From NCBI GenBank assembly GCA_026705605.1, contig JAPPAK010000001.1, forward strand, positions 124,001 to 188,000: a stretch of 64,000 nucleotides of DNA, given 5' to 3'. Shown in pieces: positions 52,726 through 57,078 of this stretch (the first letter of the stretch is position 1; the number at the start of each line of letters is the position of its first letter). The notes beneath the pieces were generated by a model, which did not search any database, was not told where the DNA came from, and saw only the letters and a list, made by a program, of their open reading frames with translations. Origin of the DNA: Chloroflexota bacterium. Its GTDB lineage: Bacteria > Chloroflexota > Dehalococcoidia > Tepidiformales > Tepidiformaceae. Made by a program: the position numbers and the translations under genes.

Positions 52726-53523
52726 ATGCGGTTGTCCACCGAGCGCCTCAGCCTGAGCTACAACGGCCGCGACGCCGTCCACGAGGTCACCCTCGACCTC
52801 GAGAGCGGCGAACTCATCGCCATCGTCGGACCCAACGGCAGCGGCAAGACCACGCTCCTGCGCGGCCTCTCCCGCCTGCTCCGCCCCGTTGCCGGGCACG
52901 TGCTCCTCGACGGCGACGACATTCGCGCCATGAGCTCCCGGAGTGTCGCCCGCCGTCTCGCCGTCCTCCCCCAGGAGCACCCGGAGGGCGTCGACATCAC
53001 CGTGAACGAGCTCGTCTGGCGCGGGCGAGCCCCCCACCAGGGCATCCTCCAGCGCGCCACCCCCGCCGACCACGAGGCCGTCGACTGGGCGCTCGAGGCC
53101 GCCGACGTCCACCACATCGCCAGCCGCCCCCTCGGCAGCCTGTCGGGAGGGGAGCGCCAGCGCGCCTGGATCGCGCTCGCTCTCGCCCAGCAGCCCCGCG
53201 TCCTCCTCCTCGACGAGCCGACCAGCTTCCTCGACGTGCAGCATCAGGTTGAGGTGATGGCCCTCCTTACCCGCCTCAACGCCGAGGGCATGACCATCAT
53301 CGTCGTCGTCCACGACCTCGCCCTCGCGGGCCGCTTCATGCAGCGCGTCATCGGCATGCGCGATGGCCGCATCGCCTTCGATGGTCCCTCGCGGGAAGTG
53401 CTTCGCCCCGAGCCCCTCGAGGAGGTCTTCGGCGTGCCCATGCTCGTCCTGGAAGATCCCGAAAGCGGCCTGCCCGTTCCTCTGCCCCGCCACCCGGAGG
53501 GCGCCGCCGGCCCGCAGACCTAG
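52726..53523 (+). CDS. FecE/BtuD-type ABC ATPase
   Basis: A 265-residue ABC ATPase: Walker A GPNGSGKTT, Q-loop LPQEHPEG, signature LSGGERQR, Walker B VLLLDEPTSFLD, switch His in VVHDLALAG. Completes a siderophore/heme/cobalamin-type importer; the sequence does not say which. Starts 2 bases after the permease stop. Its stop shares CTAG with the convergent secreted-protein gene. Confidence 0.95.
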   Translation: MRLSTERLSLSYNGRDAVHEVTLDLESGELIAIVGPNGSGKTTLLRGLSRLLRPVAGHVLLDGDDIRAMSSRSVARRLAVLPQEHPEGVDITVNELVWRGRAPHQGILQRATPADHEAVDWALEAADVHHIASRPLGSLSGGERQRAWIALALAQQPRVLLLDEPTSFLDVQHQVEVMALLTRLNAEGMTIIVVVHDLALAGRFMQRVIGMRDGRIAFDGPSREVLRPEPLEEVFGVPMLVLEDPESGLPVPLPRHPEGAAGPQT

Positions 53524-55148
53524 GGGAAGGCGTTGTAGAGAGCGTCGTTGTCGCCGGCCTGCAGGTCCGAGGTGACCCCTCCAATGGCGGCGATCGGCTT
53601 GTTACTCCTGATCACCATGCCGCCCATCATGCAGGTCGGCAGGGCCCCCAGGCCGGTCTTGTCCTTGTCGTCGGCGCCCTGGTCGAACACGAACGACCCC
53701 TCGATCGTGATCGTCGTCTGGAAGAGCGCCAGCCCCTCGCACCCCTTGATCGCCTCGGCGGGGTTGTTCACGGCCACGATCTCGAGCTCCGCCTTCCCCC
53801 CGTCCGCGACCGCTATCCCGATCCAGCTATTGGTGCCTTCCTGGTCTTGCCAGCCGTGAACGTTGCGGAAGACCAGCGGGAACTTCGCGCTCTTTGTCGT
53901 TCGCCCCTTGGGAACGCCGTTCGCCGCGGCAAAGGAATCCGTGTCATCCGTGCTCACTCGTAGCAGCAGGGCGGCAACCGGCCGGTCCGCGTAGACCATC
54001 GCCCACCCCTCGAAGCCCTCCGGAAGCTCGTCGCTGTCGTACACGCTGTGCGTAATGCCGCCTCCCGCGGGCAGTTCGATCTCGACCGTCACGAGCACAT
54101 CCCGTCCCGGGTCGCCGTCGATGGTGCCCTGGTAGACGATGCTGCCGCTGATGGCCTCTGCCCACGGGTTGGCGATGGCGAACTCGGTCCAGTAGCCGCC
54201 AACCGACTTCTGCGCGAGCGGCATCACCACTCGCCTCGAGATGTCGTCTTCGGTCGTGCCGGGCCTGTCTTTGTCCACGATGAACCCGTTGTACGAGGCC
54301 AGCCGGGCGCTGCCGGTGCCCCCGCCGTAGATGTCGACCGCCACCGTCACGGGCTGCGTTGAGTCGACCATGACGCTCATCAGGGCATTCACGGTGCCTG
54401 AGGGCATAGCGGTGGCCAGGGTTCCCTGCTCGGGCGCGAGCGTCATCTGCCCCGCTGCTGGTATCGCCCAGCCTCCGTCGGGACAGCTCTCGCTGGCGAC
54501 GTCGCTGGAGACGAGCGTCGTGCCCCCGTTCGACGATGCCGATCCCCTGCCCGGAACGAGCTCGTAGGTGAGGGTGACGCACGCCACATCGAGTCCCGCG
54601 TTCGCGATCGAGAAGCGAGTGTTCGTGACCGTTCCGTCCTCATCGAGCTGGTTGGCGACGTAGGGAAGCGCCACGCGCGTGCCGCTGTCTGCATACGCGT
54701 TGTGAACCGCGTACGACCTCGCATTCCCCGTCCCCACGGCCTCCCGCATGAGCAGAGCGTTGAGCGGCCGGTCGCTCGAAAGCACCCCCACGCCCCGGAA
54801 GCCCGGCAGCAGCCCCTGGTTCAGGGCCTGGCTGAAGGTGCGCGTGCTCCATGCCGGCACCTCCGGGTGGATCTCGCTCGCGAGCGGAATGAGCACGCCA
54901 CCGGGCGTGTAGAAGTCCATCACGATCGTCGCCGCTTGCCGGCTGTTGTTCTGGACGAGTATGGCCGTGTGTTCCTTGCTCCCGGGCGAGAGCGAGGCGT
55001 TGACCTGGAAGGGAAGCCGGGGCCCGCGCGTGGATTCGCTCGCCCCAACCGACGCGCTCGTGCTGCCCGCCGCCAGCGCCAGGAGCGCCAGCAACCCGAT
55101 CAGCAGGGCCAGGGGGTGGGGGCGAACGCGTCGACCCAGACCTGTCAT
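53520..55148 (-). CDS. Large secreted protein of unknown function
   Basis: A 542-residue exported protein. Residues 10-33 form a signal peptide (ALLIGLLALLALAAGSTSAS). The mature part is beta-rich with recurring blocks such as AILVQNNSRQAATIVMDFYT, ALMSVMVDSTQPVTVAVDIY and AISGSIVYQGTIDGDPGRDV, suggesting repeated immunoglobulin-like domains. No catalytic motif was seen. Possibly a cell-surface or S-layer-associated protein. Confidence 0.75.
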   Translation of the reverse strand: MTGLGRRVRPHPLALLIGLLALLALAAGSTSASVGASESTRGPRLPFQVNASLSPGSKEHTAILVQNNSRQAATIVMDFYTPGGVLIPLASEIHPEVPAWSTRTFSQALNQGLLPGFRGVGVLSSDRPLNALLMREAVGTGNARSYAVHNAYADSGTRVALPYVANQLDEDGTVTNTRFSIANAGLDVACVTLTYELVPGRGSASSNGGTTLVSSDVASESCPDGGWAIPAAGQMTLAPEQGTLATAMPSGTVNALMSVMVDSTQPVTVAVDIYGGGTGSARLASYNGFIVDKDRPGTTEDDISRRVVMPLAQKSVGGYWTEFAIANPWAEAISGSIVYQGTIDGDPGRDVLVTVEIELPAGGGITHSVYDSDELPEGFEGWAMVYADRPVAALLLRVSTDDTDSFAAANGVPKGRTTKSAKFPLVFRNVHGWQDQEGTNSWIGIAVADGGKAELEIVAVNNPAEAIKGCEGLALFQTTITIEGSFVFDQGADDKDKTGLGALPTCMMGGMVIRSNKPIAAIGGVTSDLQAGDNDALYNAFP

Positions 55149-55396: not shown

Positions 55397-56245
55397 ATGC
55401 GCTCGCTCTCCCTGCTCGCGGCCGTCTTGCTCGTCGTGGTTGTCGTCGCGTGCGGCGGTGGTGACTCCGCACCGGCTGCCTCCACTCCTACCGAGGCCCC
55501 TCGCGCCACCGAGCAGACCCCAGCGACCGAAGCGCCCACCTCCACCCCTGAGGCAGCCGCAACCGCCGCCGCCACCGCAGAACCCGAGGCGACGCGCCAG
55601 GCCACCCCCACCGAGGCGGCGACGGAGGGCGCCACCGCTGCCCCGACCGAAGCGTCTACGCCCGCTCCAACGGAAGAGCCCGAGGCCACCCAACCGGCAG
55701 CCGCCACAGACGCACCGGAGCCAACACCAGACCCCACCCCCGAGCCTGCCTCGGAAGACCCGGAACCTACCGAGGGGCCACCGGAGCCGGAGGAACGAGC
55801 CACCGAAGAGCCCGACGCCGGGGATGATCCCGAGCCCACTCAGGAAACCGCCCCTGAGGACGAGTCCACCCCGACCCCCACCGCCGCTCAGCCCGACCCT
55901 GAGCCCGAGACCACCCCCGCCGACACCGCCGCCGATGTCCCCGAGGAGGCGGTCGTTGTCGCCCTCCCGAAGGTCTACTTCGTCCACACCGAGTGGTGAC
56001 CGACCTGCAACAAACTCCGCCCCGTGTGGGAGGACTTGCAACAGGAGTACGAGGGCCGGATCGAGTTCATCGTCGTCGACCGCGAGAGCGAAGATGGCAG
56101 CGAGTTCGCTCGCAGGCATAACATCTTCTACCAGCCCGTTTTCATCATCTACGAAGGCGACACGCTCGTCCGTCAGGACGCAACCGTCGCCAGGGAGCGC
56201 GACCTGCGCGCATTCGTCGCCTCGGCCCTTGAGGAGGGAAGCTGA
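55397..56245 (+). CDS. Thioredoxin-fold selenoprotein lipoprotein 1 (UPTC active site; in-frame TGA at 55997)
   Basis: Read through the TGA at 55997-55999 this is a 282-residue protein. Residues 1-19 are a lipoprotein signal (VVAC19). Residues 24-190 are a Pro/Thr/Glu/Ala linker. Residues 193-282 are a thioredoxin domain: VYFVHTEW-Sec201-P-T-C204, so the first active-site residue is selenocysteine; the cis-Pro loop is FYQPVF. The frame after the TGA stays coding to 56245. A hairpin follows 17 bases after the TGA. No ribosome site precedes the ATG, and GATAGT 4 bases before it may be the -10 of a leaderless mRNA. Probably a membrane-anchored extracytoplasmic thiol/selenol oxidoreductase. The neighbours 2 and 3 are homologs. 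Confidence 0.85.
56017..56033 (+). promoter_or_regulatory. Candidate bacterial SECIS hairpin 1
   Basis: CCGCCC / GGGAGG with loop CGTGT, 17 bases after TGA 55997-55999. One G-A mismatch interrupts the 6-bp stem; an alternative CTCC/GGAG pairing (56015-56018 with 56029-56032) is also possible. Loop contains the GU expected for SelB binding. Confidence 0.55.
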
Positions 56246-56685
56246 TGCGCCTCATAGCCCTTGCCGCCACCACCGCCCTCGTAGCAGTTGTGCTCCTGGC
56301 CTGTGGCGGGAGCGACCCCGCCCCCACCGCCGCGCCCGCCCAGCCCGAGGCCACCCAGCAGGCGCAGGCCGCCGATGCCCCCGAGGAATCCGCGGTCTCA
56401 GCCACGCCAAGGGTCTACTTCATCCACACCGAGTGGTGACCGACCTGCAATGCGCTCCGCCCCGTGTGGGCGGACCTGGAGGAAGAGTACGGTGACCAGG
56501 TCGAGTTCTTCTCGATTGACCGCGAAACCCAGGAAGGCCGCGAGTTCATCCGCGAACACGGCCTTCCCATCGGCCAGCCCGGCTTCGTCGTCTACGACGC
56601 TTCCGGCGAGGTGACCTACGCCGCCCTCGGCCCCACCCGGCCCGACGGCGTGCGCGAGCTCGTCGAGTCGGTCGTTCCCCAGTAG
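56245..56685 (+). CDS. Thioredoxin-fold selenoprotein lipoprotein 2 (UPTC active site; in-frame TGA at 56437)
   Basis: 146 residues when TGA 56437-56439 is read as Sec65. Lipoprotein signal ends at LLAC20; a short linker (21-50) leads into VYFIHTEW-Sec65-P-T-C68, NALRPVWADLEEEYGD, and a cis-Pro loop IGQPGFVVYD. The start overlaps the stop of selenoprotein 1 by one base (TGATG) with a GGAGG site, so translation is coupled and the cell must treat one TGA as stop and another as Sec within one mRNA. It resembles protein 1 without the long linker. Confidence 0.87.
56457..56473 (+). promoter_or_regulatory. Candidate bacterial SECIS hairpin 2
   Basis: Perfect 6-bp stem CCGCCC/GGGCGG closing the 5-base loop CGTGT, beginning 17 bases after TGA 56437-56439. 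The loop starts 23 bases after the TGA, within the 16-37 base range known for bacterial SECIS elements, and has G as its second base. Confidence 0.7.
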
Positions 56686-56691
56686 CGAGCC

Positions 56692-57078
56692 ATGCGCTCC
56701 CTCGCCCTCGCCGCTGCCGCCACCTTCGTGATCTCGGCGCTCGCCTGCGGCGGTGGCGAGACGGCGCCCGACCCGACCGCTGCCCCCGCCGCCATCTCCG
56801 GCCCCCAGGTCTTCTTCGTCCAGATCGACACCTGAGGACCGTGAAACCGCCTCCGCCCCGTGTGGGCGGCGCTGCAGGCCGAGTACGCGGACCAGATCGA
56901 ATTCACCATGGTGGACGCGAACACCCGCGCCGGTGCCGACTTCTCCGACCTGTATGGCATCCGCGGGCACCCGGGGTTCGTCGCCATCGATGCCAACGGT
57001 GAGGTGATCCACGCCGCCCTCGGGCCCTTCGACGAAGAGGGGTTACGCGATCTCGTCGCCTCGCTTGTGCCCCAGTAG
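56692..57078 (+). CDS. Thioredoxin-fold selenoprotein lipoprotein 3 (UGPU, two in-frame TGAs)
   Basis: 128 residues when both TGA codons (56833-56835 and 56842-56844) are read as selenocysteine. Lipobox ALAC19, short linker, then VFFVQIDT-Sec48-G-P-Sec51, NRLRPVWAALQAEYAD, and a cis-Pro loop RGHPGFVAID. Both cysteines of the classic CGPC site are thus replaced, giving a possible diselenide. The frame is coding on both sides and between the TGAs. Six bases separate it from selenoprotein 2. A UxxU thioredoxin-like family (SelL) is known from aquatic organisms including some bacteria; relation to this protein is untested. Confidence 0.85.
56853..56869 (+). promoter_or_regulatory. Candidate bacterial SECIS hairpin 3
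   Basis: Perfect CCGCCC/GGGCGG stem with loop CGTGT, identical to hairpin 2. It begins 17 bases after the first TGA (as in the other two genes) and 8 bases after the second. One element may serve both codons. Confidence 0.65.

Follow-up and report, generated by a model that had tools for sequence, protein, structure and literature searches.

A tandem trio of predicted lipoprotein selenothioredoxins in a Chloroflexota bacterium, one with predicted selenocysteine at both active-site positions

Does in-frame TGA at the catalytic positions of three adjacent thioredoxin-like genes stand for selenocysteine (Sec), and what would such a cluster of proteins do? The question is raised by a locus in a window of 64,000 nucleotides from contig C4 of a Chloroflexota genome (G000; 2.79 Mb, 94% complete, 9 contigs), where three consecutive plus-strand genes, here g1, g2 and g3, carry TGA at thioredoxin active sites when translated with TGA as U (Table 1). 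An earlier sequence-only reading had seen three tandem genes with lipoprotein starts and TGA at catalytic positions, and the direct translation bears this out, giving the motifs UPTC, UPTC and UGPU. Cys codons occupy the second active-site position of g1 and g2; g3 is without a Trp before its first Sec and keeps the GP dipeptide. At each N-terminus a few charged residues lead into a hydrophobic segment and then a cysteine followed by glycines (VVAC in g1, LLAC in g2, ALAC in g3, read by eye), a signal with a lipobox cysteine by which, under a lipobox rule that we take to apply here, all three are predicted lipoproteins. Across genomes LLAC recurs in g2 of 6/7 and LAC in g3 of 7/7, the g2 start of G030 being garbled at a contig end. 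In g1 about 160 residues, with an abundance of Thr, Pro, Ala and Glu, link the signal to the thioredoxin domain; g2 and g3 have short linkers. With four Sec positions spread over three neighbouring genes, the locus is broken by standard ORF calling: the table-11 ORF containing g1 stops at the TGA, at 55999, and g2 and g3 leave only pieces below the 100-aa minimum of the ORF list. A codon-signature scan of the window for more read-through genes gave three candidates, one of them g1, and missed g2 and g3, and is thus insensitive. The stop TGA of g1 overlaps the ATG of g2, so that within g1 TGA serves both as Sec codon and as stop; the frame ends in the same way in G033.

Table 1. Coordinates (window positions) of the three genes, their in-frame TGA codons and the hairpins behind them
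Feature	Position	Strand	Remarks
g1	55397..56246	+	lipoprotein-type thioredoxin, UPTC (U201); stop TGA 56244-56246; orthologues in G029, G031-G034
g1 lipobox cysteine	55451..55453	+	VVAC|GGG, from translation
g1 in-frame TGA, Sec201	55997..55999	+	HTEW-TGA-PTC, first CxxC position; 6/6 orthologues extracted
g1 bSECIS-like hairpin	56016..56034	+	7 positions, one G.A mismatch; MFE -7.7
g2	56245..56685	+	lipoprotein-type thioredoxin, UPTC (U65); orthologues in 6 other genomes
g2 in-frame TGA, Sec65	56437..56439	+	HTEW-TGA-PTC; 7/7 genomes
g2 bSECIS-like hairpin	56456..56474	+	TCCGCCC-CGUGU-GGGCGGA; MFE -13.4
g3	56692..57078	+	lipoprotein-type thioredoxin, UGPU (U48, U51); orthologues in 6 other genomes; fold model
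g3 first in-frame TGA, Sec48	56833..56835	+	QIDT-TGA-GP-TGA; 7/7 genomes
g3 second in-frame TGA, Sec51	56842..56844	+	resolving position; 7/7 genomes
g3 bSECIS-like hairpin	56853..56869	+	CCGCCC-CGUGU-GGGCGG; 23 nt after UGA1, 14 nt after UGA2; MFE -11.3

The TGA codons are conserved across the genus. In six of its nine genomes (G000, G029 and G031-G034) the three active sites are all present and their TGA pattern is unchanged, the contigs of G029 and G031 lacking the start of g1. In G030, g2 and g3 lie at the end of a contig; G035 has a single UPQC gene and G028 gives no Sec-form match. The pattern is kept in all seven genomes that carry more than one of the genes, as are both TGAs of g3, with UPPU in G029. 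That the codons owe nothing to chance or error, as had been claimed, thus finds support in their recurrence at the same sites (g1 6/6, g2 7/7, g3 7/7 genomes). The frames downstream are still coding, again as had been read: codons after the TGA give dN/dS of 0-0.26 in 21 pairs (those led by G000 or G034, with g1 pairs involving G029 left out), and g3 counted from its first UGA gives 0.06-0.19 in 8 pairs, ratios that indicate purifying selection on these codons. Within the family, 15/38 genomes hold Sec-form homologues by manual count, a program tally of 25 taking in weak matches. A match in G004 (contig C17) with one TGA proved to be an ordinary Cys thioredoxin with the TGA upstream, as did one in G562, and a scan of viral contigs (query P0003) gave no relative. 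Some isolate names can be read as linking these bacteria to sponges.

The host has a full set of genes for Sec insertion. The tRNA-Sec gene (selC) lies at C7:371973-372066 (71.1 bits against a gathering score of 47) with anticodon TCA (ARAGORN), and selA (518 bits), selB (302 bits) and selD (347 bits) all exceed their cut-offs; the sequence-only reading had made its case depend on selB and selC, and had asked for all four. The selD gene (G000:C4:368824-369756, L021) itself has one in-frame TGA (GCGG-U-ASK) at what is presumably the catalytic Cys position, and SelD appears from its translation to be a selenoprotein in its own right. The 393 class and 400 phylum genomes searched, sets that partly overlap, hold more lipoprotein-like thioredoxins in Sec and Cys forms; the Cys-containing homologues whose existence had been proposed for checking were thus found, three of them in genomes where selA is below cut-off. 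Among 13 hand-chosen distant genomes, selA is over cut-off in 9/9 with the Sec form and 1/4 with the Cys form (Fisher p 0.014), the Cys-form genome G406 having selA, and among family genomes at least 90% complete the gene is carried by 10/16 with selA (counting G031, which has 6% contamination) and 0/7 without (Fisher p 0.007), tests that ignore kinship, with 5/7 of the selA-less genomes belonging to one genus. Six of the 16 fairly complete genomes have selA without the gene, and the Sec-form gene occurs in three selA-less genomes (G006, G021, G036), all only 72-81% complete.

The family assignment is that of thioredoxin. With TGA read as a residue, PF00085 is matched above its gathering cut-off of 23.5 bits by g1 (36.7 bits, E 4.4e-9), g2 (27.2 bits, E 4.1e-6) and g3 (35.0 bits, E 1.5e-8), and the TGA sites align with the redox Cys positions of thioredoxin homologues. 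The TrxA equivalog TIGR01068 (cut-off 96.8 bits) is not reached by g1 (30.8), g2 (22.7) or g3 (30.5), and no NCBIfam model is over cut-off for the trio or for the G014 UPDU and G729 genes tested, described below. An AlphaFold2 model of g3, the only gene modelled, built from 37 aligned rows with Cys placed at the Sec sites, has a thioredoxin fold with a mean pLDDT of 86.9, at 93-98 in blocks from residue 41 onward and low only in the N-terminal tail; the top PDB matches of this model in Foldseek are thioredoxins or thioredoxin designs, E. coli 2trx being seventh. Pro94 is invariant in the 37 rows and would form the cis-Pro loop. The fold that had been read from the letters is thus upheld, by PF00085 for all three proteins and by a structure model for g3.

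The neighbourhood suggests how the trio arose. The single UPQC gene of the congener G035 has the same neighbours as the trio, with a secreted protein and an ABC transporter on one side and APH-type and acyl-CoA dehydrogenase genes on the other. The tree gathers the g1, g2 and g3 sequences into one group apiece (support 93/85, 100/98 and 100/100, that of g1 being below the tree program's starred level), and the fork joining these groups with G035 and others is without resolution. The shared neighbours and the three tree groups make tandem duplication at a locus holding one UxxC gene in G035 the probable origin, with gene loss in G035 as a possible alternative. Since g1, g2 and the single-copy family rows extracted are UxxC, G014 UPDU apart, we infer that in g3 Sec has replaced the second cysteine. 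UxxC lipoprotein thioredoxins also stand in tandem pairs in G099 (L087) and G366 (L088), both of one genus in another family, so that tandem copying recurs. The secreted 542-aa protein beside the trio (window 53520-55148) has no Pfam match at E 0.001 and is kept beside the locus in L052, L055, L056 and L092 and, more distantly, in L031. Beside a Sec thioredoxin in G037 (L091 4100-4966) lie two ORF pieces resembling one selenoprotein gene broken by a stop, which we take to be of the PrdB/GrdB type.

The double-Sec motif is found beyond the genus. G014, of another genus in the same family, has a UPDU lipoprotein (G014:C337:515-781, L085), and a UIPU lipoprotein (G729:C175, 138-371; L115, L121) is encoded in G729, which belongs to a different family of the phylum. 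Its gene directly follows one for a membrane-anchored UQPC protein, which is itself preceded on the same strand by a cupredoxin lipoprotein gene; the best NCBIfam match of the UQPC protein is ResA, under cut-off. Both genomes have selA, and in the two UxxU genes the hairpin lies 26 nt from the first UGA and 17 nt from the second. UxxU may have arisen independently in G014; the UPDU branch is long (2.17), the tree flagging long-branch joins, and the G729 gene was left out of the tree. It is an evenly balanced proposition that diselenide thioredoxins (PF00085, UxxU) recur outside the Chloroflexota membrane, accompanied by UxxC partners (g1 and g2 here, the ResA-like UQPC protein in G729) and with one SECIS hairpin for two UGAs.

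The case for a hairpin behind the TGAs is stronger for some of them than for others. The bSECIS model as set out in PMC13188914 asks for a loop of 3-9 nt with G in its first two positions, a stem of 4-16 bp, a spacing of 16-37 nt and an MFE of at most -7.5. The first UGA of all three genes fits it, with a spacing of 23 nt and the loop CGUGU, the codons of the hairpin spelling LRPVW throughout, and covariation supports the stem. Two cases are weaker: the g1 stem needs a mismatch to form, and in g3 the second UGA, at 14 nt from the loop, misses the minimum of 16. These same two fail a strict 6-bp hairpin test, which finds no hairpin for the second UGA. Some such hairpin stands behind 154/1269 TGA trinucleotides of the window, and with a test so permissive here the argument is carried by position, conservation and covariation. 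Standard pairs make up 95.4% of pair cells over 28 family rows (25 distinct), namely all those extracted with UxxC or UGPU at this site, G014 UPDU and other families having their hairpins elsewhere; three compensatory, double-sided changes occur at two stem pairs (G006, G014, G015), at most 2/500 shuffles match any observed pairing measure, and sliding lowers pairing to 57% or less. The hairpin span of g3 shows synonymous variation at 0/8 degenerate codons in seven genomes, against 49/72 further down (a span extending a few codons beyond the gene end), and those of g1 and g2 at 2/8. Two family members fall under the model strength of -7.5 (G014 UPNC, -5.3; G015, -5.6), and RNAfold pairs all seven g3 rows and the G029 g1 row otherwise in 54-nt stretches, 44-nt stretches giving the same hairpin. 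Rfam gave three weak matches under gathering scores, none covering the hairpins as SECIS. One hairpin probably serves both g3 UGAs, which are two codons apart.

Other readings of these codons have to be set against decoding as Sec. If UGA were read as Cys or Trp, without selenium, a Cys at these sites would give proteins that work too, the sites being thioredoxin cysteine positions; such a reassignment is nevertheless very improbable in a genome with tRNA-Sec, SelA, SelB and SelD, where TGA also ends g1 and ordinary Cys codons encode the second active-site residue in g1 and g2, and three distant homologues carry Cys just where selA misses its cut-off. The draft state of the genome, in nine contigs, might suggest pseudogenes or sequencing error, an explanation contradicted by the same TGA sites in seven genomes and by purifying selection behind them, which leave it a negligible chance. 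The position of the second g3 UGA, so near the loop as to lie outside the 16-37 nt model, would be consistent with translation ending there in a short product; against this, the 77 codons after it are conserved at the dN/dS of the eight g3 pairs, and G014 and G729 have UxxU genes too, at a spacing of 17 nt, so that termination at this codon is very unlikely. We consider g1-g3 almost certain to be selenoproteins on this comparative evidence.

The reading that we favour as a whole, and regard as likely, is one of three membrane-anchored paralogous selenoproteins in which UGA is decoded as Sec and which act as redox thioredoxins outside the membrane. Lipidated N-termini would hold them to the cytoplasmic membrane on its outer side, read-through of UGA at the catalytic positions, to which the comparisons point, would yield thioredoxin domains with UxxC in g1 and g2 and with UxxU in g3, and SelB with one stem-loop behind the first UGA would decode each gene, the same stem-loop serving both UGAs of g3. 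A thioredoxin-type redox activity outside the cytoplasm is likely, any named substrate doubtful: the seven neighbours scanned, among them a FecCD-type (iron/cobalamin-type) ABC transporter, the secreted protein, APH, acyl-CoA dehydrogenase and a short-chain dehydrogenase, name none and include no redox partner gene. By analogy, the substrates of g1 and g2 may be extracytoplasmic proteins whose disulfides or oxidised thiols they reduce, a CcdA/DsbD-type carrier being the electron source; a membrane protein of this type (DsbD_TM) is encoded on another contig (C7:20706-21497) and could supply the trio. A selenol relay among the three, as the sequence-only reading had it, might also operate. Diselenide potentials lie below those of selenenylsulfides and disulfides, and on that count g3 could be the most reducing of the three and might pass electrons to g1 and g2; as a diselenide thioredoxin it might act as a strongly reducing partner, or else as a reductase or peroxidase that resists oxidants. 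The two selenolates of g3, three residues apart, could instead bind soft metals, making it a UxxU metal-binding lipoprotein (for mercury or copper) or a factor in copper-site maturation like TlpA/Sco. The missing Trp before the first Sec, the G729 UIPU gene following ResA-like UQPC and cupredoxin genes, and a metal-binding selenoprotein family with UxxU, NF041115, listed in PMC13188914, would suit such a role; the GP dipeptide, cis-Pro loop and thioredoxin fold kept in g3, and seven neighbours with no obvious metal-resistance gene, though with the one iron/cobalamin-type transporter, speak for a redox protein and make a metal site unlikely.

A natural UxxU thioredoxin, standing beside two UxxC paralogues in the same gene cluster, would allow tests of the diselenide redox couple in the redox fold that has been studied best, and it puts a question to translation, namely how a single hairpin 23 nt from one UGA and 14 nt from the next would direct SelB twice. 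UxxC selenothioredoxins are already known. UxxU in PF00085 looks new, with seven of seven g3 genes and the G014 and G729 lipoproteins as cases, and as far as literature and family-model searches show, so does the lipoprotein-type trio with its UxxU thioredoxin; 'UGPU' as a whole word led to no selenium paper by title.

Compared with known systems, the trio shares with TlpA, ResA and StoA a predicted membrane-anchored, outside-facing thioredoxin domain, perhaps fed by a CcdA-type protein, but is far under the NCBIfam cut-offs, and none of the neighbours scanned is a cytochrome-c or spore gene. With SaoT (NF040730) and HUIPC (NF047660) it has in common a small thioredoxin-like protein with UxxC, although g2 and g3 score 12-14 bits against cut-offs of 65 and 105 (g1 not being listed). 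The selenocysteine thioredoxin in the table of PMC13188914 is a PF00085 protein with UxxC and one Sec, the same Pfam family as the trio and with Sec at the first active-site position as in g1 and g2; in comparison with that entry, the trio is lipoprotein-type and tandem, and in g3 Sec takes the second position as well. SelL and the Prx-like UxxU proteins, as they appear in the PF00578 row of PMC13188914 and under Prx-like 2 in PMC2398784, share UxxU in a thioredoxin-like fold, but they are peroxiredoxin-like, whereas g3 matches PF00085 and canonical thioredoxins.
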